Below are positions 22,995 to 27,277 of a DNA stretch of 64,000 nucleotides, in pieces; within the stretch, counting starts at the first letter, position 1; every line of letters begins with the position of its first letter. A program made the translations under genes and the position numbers. The notes below the pieces were generated by a model that did no database searches, was not told the origin of the DNA, and saw nothing but the letters and a program-made list of their open reading frames with translations. The stretch comes from Bacteroidales bacterium (GTDB taxonomy: Bacteria; Bacteroidota; Bacteroidia; Bacteroidales; Prolixibacteraceae): NCBI GenBank assembly GCA_012719495.1, contig JAAYAG010000055.1, forward strand, positions 1 to 64,000. The letters are read 5' to 3'.

Positions 22995-23002
22995 TATTTT
23001 TG
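22995..23002 (+). promoter_or_regulatory. -7-like promoter box for corA
   Basis: TATTTTTG matches TAnnTTTG. Transcription would begin near 23009, giving corA a leader of about 128 nt, which is long for this window. Confidence 0.45.
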
Positions 23003-23029
23003 CAGCGTAAATCTAAAATTATAATCAAT

Positions 23030-23080
23030 ATGGACGAAGGCCCGTATCATAGTAAGCAGAAAATGTTAATCTATTTATAG
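23030..23080 (+). CDS. Candidate 16-residue leader peptide upstream of corA
   Basis: An ATG-to-TAG frame encoding MDEGPYHSKQKMLIYL lies in the corA leader. Its start has the A-rich context usual here. The stop codon overlaps the 5' arm of a hairpin (23079-23112) that competes with a second hairpin hiding the corA ribosome binding site. The acidic and proline start followed by basic residues resembles enterobacterial MgtL in design, not in sequence. Whether it is translated is not shown by the sequence. Confidence 0.4.
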   Translation: MDEGPYHSKQKMLIYL

Positions 23081-23131
23081 AGGAGTCTTTGTTTGTAGTG
23101 CAAGCCTCCTTTAAGTTTCAATGAAAGGAGG
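23079..23131 (+). promoter_or_regulatory. Mutually exclusive hairpins controlling the corA ribosome binding site
   Basis: Hairpin B pairs 23105-23112 (CCTCCTTT) with 23124-23131 (AAAGGAGG), eight perfect base pairs that cover the corA Shine-Dalgarno sequence. Hairpin A pairs 23079-23085 with 23106-23112, adds an inner four-pair helix (23087-23091 with 23101-23104), and uses the same central strand, so A and B cannot coexist. A should leave the binding site free. It does not look like the M-box magnesium riboswitch. Confidence 0.55.
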
Positions 23132-23136
23132 TAAAA

Positions 23137-24069
23137 ATGATCAAATTTTACAAAAGCCTTGCTGGTGTATATAACCTCGACAAAGCAGGGGAAAATGGGT
23201 GGACTAATGTTATTAAACCCGATGAAAACGAAGTAAAAAGACTCGTTTCTGAATTTGGTATTCCCGATGATCTTATTCAGGATATTCTTGATATCGACGA
23301 GCGGCCTCGTATGGAATTCGACGACGATTGGTCGCTACTTATCATGCGTATCCCAGTTCAGACTCCCAATAACGGAGTACCTTTCATTACTGTACCTCTG
23401 GCTGTTTTTGTTACTCAGCAACAAGTTATTACTATATGCTGTGCCGAAAATGAAGTGCTACCTGCCGAACAGCCTTCGCTTTACAGGACTCATTATAAAT
23501 TGGTTAACGATCATACAAATTTCATTTTAAATCTTTTCTTGCGTTCAGCCAATACTTATTTGAAATACATGAAGCAAATCAACCAGCAATCTAATCACAT
23601 TGAAAAAGAACTTGAACGTTCGATTAAAAATGAGGAACTGCATAATTTGCTTAACCTTGAAAAAAGTCTGGTTTATTTTATAACGTCATTAAAAGGCAAT
23701 GATAATTTGTTGTCAAAATTCAGGAAATCAAAACTTTCTGTATTAAACGAGACAAACGAAGATTTGTTGGAAGATGCCATAATTGAAACAAAACAAGCAG
23801 TAGATACCGTTCAAATCTATTCCGATATTCAAAGTGGGATGATGGATACTTTTGCATCTGTTATTTCCAACAATATTAATGTTGTAATGAAGCAACTTAC
23901 TTCATTTTCAATTATCTTGATGATTCCAACTCTTATTGCCAGCATTTATGGAATGAATGTTAACAACGGTTTGGAAACTTCAAAATTGGCCTTTCTTGGA
24001 ATTTTAATATTTTCTATTATTGCCTCTACTCTTGGCGTTTACATTTTTCGGAGGAAACAGTTTTTTTAG
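23137..24069 (+). CDS. corA: CorA-family divalent cation (Mg2+/Co2+) transporter
   Basis: A pentameric inner-membrane channel subunit for magnesium or cobalt uptake. The 310-residue protein has a large cytoplasmic N-terminal domain. A long helix leads to two C-terminal transmembrane segments, the first ending in the selectivity motif GMN at residues 272-274 (SIYGMNVNN). The basic tail FRRKQFF is typical. It has a strong AAAGGAGG ribosome binding site ending five bases before the ATG, embedded in a hairpin, so translation is probably regulated. The gene is monocistronic. Confidence 0.93.
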   Translation: MIKFYKSLAGVYNLDKAGENGWTNVIKPDENEVKRLVSEFGIPDDLIQDILDIDERPRMEFDDDWSLLIMRIPVQTPNNGVPFITVPLAVFVTQQQVITICCAENEVLPAEQPSLYRTHYKLVNDHTNFILNLFLRSANTYLKYMKQINQQSNHIEKELERSIKNEELHNLLNLEKSLVYFITSLKGNDNLLSKFRKSKLSVLNETNEDLLEDAIIETKQAVDTVQIYSDIQSGMMDTFASVISNNINVVMKQLTSFSIILMIPTLIASIYGMNVNNGLETSKLAFLGILIFSIIASTLGVYIFRRKQFF

Positions 24070-25969: not shown

Positions 25970-25977
25970 TATTATTG
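25970..25977 (+). promoter_or_regulatory. -7-like promoter box ahead of the cobalamin riboswitch
   Basis: TATTATTG differs from TAnnTTTG at one position and would start transcription a few bases before the aptamer. Confidence 0.35.
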
Positions 25978-25985
25978 CACACGAA

Positions 25986-26165
25986 ATGGTTGACTTGGTA
26001 TGTTTCATATCTGTCAATAATAGGGAATGCCGTGTAACCCGGCAACAGTACCCGCTGCTGTGATTCCTGCTAATTTTTGTGACAATACTTTAGCCACTGC
26101 TCCGTTTTTTTGAAGGAATGGGAAGGCGTCACAAAAAGGGATAAGTCAGAAGACCTGCCATTCGA
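25986..26165 (+). ncRNA. Cobalamin riboswitch
   Basis: The conserved B12-aptamer blocks occur in order: GGGAATGCCGTGTAACCCGG (about 26023-26042), ACAGTACCCGCTGCTGTGA, GCCACTG, GGGAAGGC, and the 3' block AGTCAGAAGACCTGCC ending at 26159. It probably lowers expression of the downstream DUF4465 lipoprotein when intracellular cobalamin is plentiful. The 120 nt between aptamer and start codon may hold the expression platform; no strong terminator is obvious there, so control may be translational. Confidence 0.92.
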
Positions 26166-26287
26166 TTTTTAAACTTTTGCTTTCGGGAAGAAAGGCATTG
26201 TAACTGATAAAAAAGTGCACGCTGTTTTTGTCTCTTTTCGTTAAGCTCTTGGGTATGAATAATTCAAGAATGTTAAATATTATCAAA

Positions 26288-27277
26288 ATGAAAAAGTTAA
26301 TTAAATTTTCTGTCGTATTTTTCTTGGCAGCTGGTATTTTTTCTTCGTGTAACAAAGACCATGTTGCACCTGAGATTTCGACATTTGTAATTAATTCTGA
26401 CACTACGATTCGTGTTGGAAGTTCTTTGTCGCTCGAAGCCAATATCACTTCTGAGCTGGTTTATCATTACAATTGGTATATAAACAACGAGCTTAAAAGC
26501 AATGAGCCTGTATATGTTTTTACACCAGAAAAAACTGGGGAATATGCAGTTAAGTTGTTGGTGAAGAACAAGTATGGTTCTGATAGCATTGATGCTGTCG
26601 TTACAGTTAAACCTCGCTTGATTACTATCGACTTTGGTGATTTGTCTTTAGGCAGCAATTCATTCTGGAATGGAAGTAATGGTGCGGGTAGCTTTACTTC
26701 GGGGATTGCCAACTTTAGAAATTATTACTACAGCGACTATTCGTATTGGGAAGGTTTTTCATATTCGAACCGAAACGATGCAGTAACTAGTGGTTATGCC
26801 AATCAGTATAGTGTGTTCAATAAAGAGAATAATGGAAATACCTTTGCGTTGTTTTATCCCCCTTATGCAGGTGTTGCTTCTGTAAGTTTTTCGAATGGAC
26901 AAAGTGTTGTTGTTGAGAGTATTAAAGTATGCAATGACTCATATCCTGCTCTTTCGATGACCAACGGAGATGCGATGGCTAAAAAATTTGGTGGAAGTAC
27001 AGGTAATGATCCTGATTTCTATAAACTTATTATTGCAGGATTGGATAAAAACGGGCAGATGACAAAAACCGTTGAATTTTATCTTGCCGATTTTCGTTTT
27101 TCTGATAATTCACAGGACTATATTGTAGATACCTGGACAAGTGTAGATATTTCTTCGCTGGGAGCTGTAAATCAGCTTACTTTTAAGTTTGAATCGAGCG
27201 ATAACGGCACTTTTGGAATGAATACCCCGGCTTATGTATGTATTGATGATATTGTTTACAACGAACCTGAGGATTAG
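26288..27277 (+). CDS. DUF4465 lipoprotein under cobalamin riboswitch control
   Basis: A 329-residue lipoprotein: a signal sequence ends in IFSSC with Cys21. An Ig/PKD-like domain (about residues 30-105, with PEKTGEYAVKLLVKNKYGSDS) and a DUF4465 domain (about 108-325, from ITIDFGDLSLGSNSFWNGS) follow. As I recall, DUF4465-type lipoproteins of gut Bacteroides bind vitamin B12 at the cell surface (BtuH); this was not checked here. The riboswitch in front strongly supports a B12-related role. No BtuB-like receptor or btu transport genes are adjacent. ATG 26288 is chosen because it gives the lipoprotein signal; earlier in-frame ATGs lie in the leader. Confidence 0.88.
   Translation: MKKLIKFSVVFFLAAGIFSSCNKDHVAPEISTFVINSDTTIRVGSSLSLEANITSELVYHYNWYINNELKSNEPVYVFTPEKTGEYAVKLLVKNKYGSDSIDAVVTVKPRLITIDFGDLSLGSNSFWNGSNGAGSFTSGIANFRNYYYSDYSYWEGFSYSNRNDAVTSGYANQYSVFNKENNGNTFALFYPPYAGVASVSFSNGQSVVVESIKVCNDSYPALSMTNGDAMAKKFGGSTGNDPDFYKLIIAGLDKNGQMTKTVEFYLADFRFSDNSQDYIVDTWTSVDISSLGAVNQLTFKFESSDNGTFGMNTPAYVCIDDIVYNEPED

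Follow-up and report, generated by a model that had tools for sequence, protein, structure and literature searches.

An acidic upstream reading frame and mutually exclusive RNA helices precede corA and other Mg2+ transporter genes in Bacteroidota, a probable ribosome-operated attenuator

The leader of the corA gene in a Prolixibacteraceae genome (order Bacteroidales; GenBank contig JAAYAG010000055.1, positions 1 to 64,000, a stretch of 64,000 nucleotides referred to here as the window) is rather likely, in the absence of expression, ribosome profiling or Mg2+ data, to be a ribosome-operated translational attenuator which tunes production of the Mg2+ transporter to Mg2+ supply. As judged by comparison of related leaders, the conserved upstream open reading frame (uORF), the placement of its stop codon, the helices A, B and 1:2, the strong Shine-Dalgarno (SD) sequence and the link to unrelated Mg2+ transporters are established. 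The leader spans about positions 23010-23136 of the window, and the following features were located:

22995-23002, forward strand: -7 promoter motif TATTTTTG, matching the Bacteroidota TAnnTTTG
23030-23080, forward strand: leader uORF, encoding the peptide MDEGPYHSKQKMLIYL followed by a stop; conserved in relatives and without an SD of its own
23029-23043, forward strand: segment 1, from the start codon to the Pro5 codon, pairing with segment 2 (helix 1:2, also termed P0)
23078-23097, forward strand: segment 2, comprising arm 1 (23078-23085) and the loop of hairpin A, with segment 1 or segment 3 as partner
23105-23113, forward strand: segment 3, the arm 2 common to hairpins A and B, in which CCTCCTTT mimics the 16S anti-SD
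23124-23132, forward strand: segment 4, AAAGGAGG, the SD of corA, masked inside hairpin B
23137-24069, forward strand: corA, encoding a Mg2+ channel of 310 amino acids (Pfam PF01544, E 3.7e-51)

The top NCBIfam match of corA was TIGR00383 (corA), with a score under the cut-off of that model. The uORF has 16 codons, from an ATG at 23030 to a TAG stop at 23078-23080. The four segments have the arrangement of an attenuator, in which 1:2 together with 3:4 corresponds to the OFF state and 2:3 to the ON state. Transcription is expected to start near 23009-23010, a position inferred from the -7 motif. Of 95 relatives, 80 have this motif 27-42 nt 5' of their uORF, where shuffled sequences would yield 2.1. 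A transcription start downstream of 23085 would have refuted the preliminary description of this leader; the motif lies just 5' of the uORF, and the inferred start is compatible with that description.

Hairpin B is a perfect 8-bp helix between CCTCCTTT (23105-23112) and AAAGGAGG (23124-23131), to which a G-U adds a ninth pair, with a free energy of -9.5 kcal/mol (z -3.0) when folded alone. In hairpin A, arm 1 (23078-23085) pairs with arm 2 (23106-23113) around an inner helix (23091-23096/23100-23105); this hairpin gave -12.1 kcal/mol (z -2.9) when folded alone. Arm 2 is common to A and B, making the two mutually exclusive. The 16-codon ORF, hairpin A and the SD-masking hairpin B of the preliminary description, as well as the strand shared by A and B, were thus all recovered where it had placed them.

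Covariation in both stems, which the preliminary description had proposed as a check, was assessed among the leaders of relatives, and compensatory changes were found in both. For hairpin A, 92.7% of cells were paired, with double changes at 7 of 8 pairs; 34 double-change cells were counted, compared to 9.7 +/- 2.7 in shuffles, and slid controls were 40-53% paired. For hairpin B, 83.6% were paired, with double changes at 8 of 10 pairs. RNAalifold on the raw MAFFT alignment recovered A and missed both B and helix 1:2, because A and B exclude each other, and its consensus was replaced by counts on named structures. In a cross-species swap test, which depends little on alignment and pairs the arms of each leader either with their own partners or with those of other species (2000 permutations), own arms were clearly favoured for A (-12.7 vs -9.9 kcal/mol, z -12.0) and for B (-14.3 vs -11.1 kcal/mol, z -10.7), no permutation being as good in either case, while five control segment pairs were all null. 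Kinship can bias such tests upwards; after thinning to a single representative at 75% identity, z was still -11.4 for A and -9.0 for B. The observation of the corA leader is confirmed as real and far from chance.

Folding of the entire leader to minimum energy (z -2.5) gave a third helix, 23029-23043 with 23082-23083 and 23085-23097, in which the opening codons of the uORF, up to Pro5, are paired to the last part of arm 1 and to the A loop. This helix 1:2 adjoins B and is compatible with it, and is incompatible with A. As the uORF side hardly varies, own loops were compared with shuffled loops and paired much better (z -15.7 for mononucleotide and -12.4 for dinucleotide shuffling). In leaders with an altered uORF side (codon 4 GGC to GAC or GTC, CCC to CTC, GAA to GAC), the loop often follows suit; compensatory cases include L056, L065, L087, L093 and L100, and pairing was poor in L072, L089 and L090.

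An acidic uORF at such a position is expected in 0.14% of shuffled leaders. Among 96 leaders of non-redundant relatives, 95 start with ATG, 95 encode at least two acidic residues (Asp or Glu) at positions 2-4 and 92 encode proline at positions 4-6, with all four proline codons in use, so that the acidic and proline-containing start named in the preliminary description is conserved. Lengths in this set range from 10 to 19 codons, with two main classes of 12 and 16, and the in-frame stop falls between -13 and +6 nt of arm 1 in 80 of 81 leaders. Past codon 5, frame 0 alone shows conservative codon differences. At codons 2-5 frame 2 also scores highly, since helix 1:2 constrains the same bases, and the codon test is therefore not decisive there; in these leaders (class 1) helix 1:2 makes use of the DEGP codons as well, and the constraints on peptide and RNA are entangled. 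SD pairing of the uORFs had a median of +1.1 kcal/mol. Variant uORFs, MDGVPSH.. and MDGVPDN.., precede CorA at L183 and L184, with one acidic residue near the start and a strong hairpin A.

More distant CorA genes are preceded by class 2 uORFs (e.g. MDDYHPDS, MDDYYPKK.., MDDSNPR..), which are accompanied by A and B. Hairpin B of class 2 passed the swap test (z -12.6, n=51, 0 of 3000 permutations), while helix 1:2, which was sought in the same leaders, is absent (z 0.6). Asp-Asp is retained with varied codons in class 2 despite the missing helix, which argues that the acidic pair is no mere by-product of RNA pairing; the Gly-Pro step is mostly absent. By hand count, an M[DE][DE] uORF precedes 51 of the 67 assessable CorA genes of the order sample that reach at least 40% identity. 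In other Bacteroidia families an M[DEN]DD uORF (MDDDHP.., MEDDPD..) starts 7 nt 5' of the corA ATG and overlaps the corA start out of frame (ATGGACGATGATC), as seen at L227, L228, L275, L276, L278, L279, L280, L281, L283 and L284. This third class is possibly a minimal version of the same sensor, and early drop-off would by itself free the corA start codon. It is conceivable, though we hold it only tentatively and with more doubt than belief, that Bacteroidia share an acidic-start uORF code which sets Mg2+ import in at least three layouts: class 1, MDEGP with four segments; class 2, MDD with two hairpins; and class 3, MDD or MED overlapping the corA start, with the output of classes 1 and 2 passing through SD-dependent initiation.

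The effect of a ribosome was modelled as a masked footprint of 30 nt in 95 leaders. Without a ribosome, 1:2 and B were formed and SD accessibility was 0.06. This ribosome-free ground state is also what would be expected if Mg2+ bound the leader RNA directly and stabilised 1:2 and 3:4, the uORF being incidental, and the M-box, likewise a leader of Mg2+ transporter genes but one that acts by direct ligand binding, shows that RNAs are capable of direct Mg2+ sensing. We give this explanation very little credence: no conserved unpaired core is seen outside the uORF, helix 1:2 is missing in class 2, and conservation extends to the start codon, the frame and the placement of the stop. Rfam gave nothing at gathering threshold for the window leader, and no metal riboswitch, the M-box included, up to E 1 at five leader loci. 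The only Rfam match was to an unrelated cobalamin riboswitch (RF00174, 92 bits, window 25970-26176, forward strand), which lies 5' of an ORF (26228-27277) that reads like a surface lipoprotein.

A masked ribosome on codons 1-7 removed 1:2 and left A able to form; at the stop codon it abolished A in 95 of 95 leaders while B remained, in agreement with the earlier claim that a ribosome at the stop blocks A and allows B. At equilibrium B is usually still favoured over A when a ribosome occupies the early codons (mean SD accessibility 0.19), and in the window leader SD accessibility was 0.00 in every modelled state. The ON state consequently requires that A be formed during transcription, before segment 4 is made; shortened transcripts did favour A in the modelling.

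In the attenuator proposed here, a leader whose uORF carries no ribosome would pair segment 1 with segment 2 and segment 3 with the SD of segment 4, leaving corA OFF. A ribosome on the first codons would open 1:2. At low Mg2+ it would pause or drop off at the acidic and proline-containing start (Asp-Glu-Gly-Pro), and segment 2, once freed, could pair with segment 3 as hairpin A, exposing the SD for translation of corA (ON). At high Mg2+ the ribosome would reach the stop, in or just before arm 1, and cover segment 2; hairpin B would then form and corA would be shut (OFF). The ribosome logic of early drop-off in the preliminary description is supported, but segment 1 had been overlooked and the ground state without a ribosome is predicted to be OFF; early drop-off can work only because the ribosome first opens 1:2. 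It is inferred that the uORF is translated, that Mg2+ is the signal and that the trigger is destabilisation and not stalling. The same RNA switch could be operated by a stalled ribosome (e.g. at the proline codon, or through shortage of EF-P or charged tRNA-Pro), the signal then being translation capacity instead of Mg2+. Holding the ribosome at codon 5 does cover segment 1 and increase A, and proline is nearly universal in class 1 (92/96); against this, class 2 uORFs mostly do without the Gly-Pro step and yet keep Asp-Asp, and the downstream genes encode Mg2+ transporters, not amino-acid or translation functions. Stalling is accordingly regarded as unlikely, though not negligible.

Pairing of the corA SD to the 16S tail has an energy of -13.9 kcal/mol, the strongest among 42 genes in the window (median about 0). 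Bacteroidia seldom use SDs and their ribosomes generally occlude the anti-SD (PMC9976891), so that the role of SD masking as the output has yet to be proven for these organisms. The studied strong-SD exception in Bacteroidota is rpsU (< -13; PMC9976891), and corA shares with this autoregulated gene an exceptionally strong SD in an SD-poor phylum. Its value is within the rpsU range. Of 290 genes in the leader loci, 36 have very strong SDs, and the majority of these 36 have CorA-like starts. It is therefore imaginable that the SD selects specialised bS21-lacking ribosomes, as for rpsU, the hairpins mainly barring normal ribosomes from corA. This seems improbable, as it leaves the acidic uORF, the stop placement and helix A unexplained, and many class 1 SDs are weaker (median -8.2). 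For rpsU no uORF or acidic peptide is described, and the sensor is bS21 content (PMC9976891). Control might also be exerted on transcription, given that the enteric corA and mgtA leaders work via Rho (PMC11552253). Hairpin B, however, includes the SD, ends at the gene start without a U-run, and shows covariation with the SD region among corA leaders, mgtE leaders and class 2 leaders alike; Rho-dependent attenuation is a reading we consider poorly supported, and SD masking rather than Rho-dependent termination is the predicted output.

Upstream regions were collected from CorA relatives in GTDB genomes and by whole-genome searches. Nearly all close relatives have ATGGACGAAGGCCC..., then CTGTAAGG...CCTTACAG...TGTAAGGAG; members of the close set without the leader are L049, L052, L107 and L108. 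A covariance model (R1) was used to scan samples of the family, order and phylum, and matched 44 of 120, 37 of 393 and 3 of 395 genomes, respectively. One of the three phylum matches (L113 in G339, E 0.0084) was rejected as a chance match, having no uORF of this type and no transporter. Two Flavobacteriia records, named Yeosuana marina and Mesonia oceanica (L059 and L066), also have class 1 leaders; set against the near-empty phylum sample, this suggests that corA has sporadically been transferred horizontally together with its leader. The source genome has a single leader copy by R1, no second being found and its mgtE (contig 86) having no such leader, and order-level genomes with the leader have one each.

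The preliminary description had presented a leader of corA; the element is not specific to that gene. R1 leaders precede both CorA (PF01544) and MgtE (PF01769, PF03448) genes, the latter including L121, L148, L149, L154, L157 and L158, as well as L141, where the MgtE frame matches about 200 nt further down. At L288/L294 the leader precedes a Mg2+ P-type ATPase (TIGR01524, 1222 bits vs a cut-off of 611), and at L172, L285 and L287 a gene for a PRC/MgtE_N/CBS protein, after which comes an Nramp gene. Mg2+ transport by an Nramp-related protein has precedent (PMC4072509); the PRC-barrel/MgtE_N/CBS and Nramp pair (L172, L285, L287; L291-L293) is a candidate Mg2+-specific Nramp system, its transport of Mg2+ being inferred. 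By hand comparison, the 21 genomes in which another transporter has the leader do not overlap with the 81 that have this CorA (samples of 393 and 386 genomes, possibly not identical). Non-CorA leaders alone gave z -6.9 for B (0 of 3000) and z -10.2 for helix 1:2, L141 being counted with the corA group. That a single leader serves at least two unrelated transporter families is the best evidence for Mg2+ as the signal. The leader is kept on mgtE (L167) in G602, a genome of 1.2 Mb that is 99% complete, and the switch is thus present even in a small genome.

Among known systems the leader most resembles mgtQ-mgtB of Salmonella, in which a tiny ORF with acidic codons near its start precedes a Mg2+ transporter gene, and 1:2 with 3:4 excludes 2:3, with 3:4 hiding the RBS under translational control (PMC8092293). 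Loss of the mgtQ start codon lowers mgtB, acidic codons raise it, and the RBS lies within 3:4 (PMC8092293). The corresponding features, an acidic short ORF before a Mg2+ transporter gene (95/96) and exclusive helices with the RBS in 3:4, are met here, as is the general requirement for a ribosome-mediated attenuator, with stops near arm 1 in 80/81 and A lost under masking in 95/95. Homology to mgtQ was tested and not met, as place, gene, peptide and phylum differ, and no sequence kinship was seen: mgtQ is gammaproteobacterial, has 8 codons, is intergenic within mgtCBRU (between mgtC and mgtB) and targets MgtB, whereas the Bacteroidota element is a 5' leader with a uORF of 10-21 codons and targets CorA, MgtE, MgtA-type ATPase or Nramp-linked genes. 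In mgtL of E. coli and Salmonella, acidic and proline codons destabilise ribosomes at low Mg2+ (PMC11282234, PMC11552253); mgtL-mgtA is alike in its acidic/proline start (EPDP), in low-Mg2+ destabilisation and in being shut by full translation, but its output is Rho-dependent termination and its peptide and RNA differ. In enteric corL-corA a leader ORF likewise precedes corA, its translation represses corA and alternative structures are formed (PMC11552253), but corL has a UUG start, a longer leader, a single proline and Rho dependence. The published corA motif is confined to gammaproteobacteria (PMC6429828). The preliminary description knew of no such leader for Bacteroidota corA; no description of a Bacteroidota leader of this kind was found in the open-access papers searched, but the design itself has precedent in mgtQ (PMC8092293) and corL (PMC11552253). 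The logic of the leader corresponds to that of mgtQ and, less closely, to that of mgtL and corL, without any indication of shared ancestry. The best reading is a Mg2+-responsive translational attenuator, set off by destabilisation or pausing of the ribosome at the acidic and proline codons. By function it is an attenuator of the mgtQ/mgtL type, homology to either not having been demonstrated, and its distribution is unusually wide and modular.

Control by Mg2+ is poorly known outside enterics and Firmicutes. The occurrence of one leader on four non-homologous transporter types points to Mg2+, or the response of the ribosome to Mg2+, as the signal, and these leaders supply a natural set of strong, regulated SD sites in Bacteroidota. 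Independent evolution of Mg2+ sensing by acidic nascent peptides in distant phyla is suggested.
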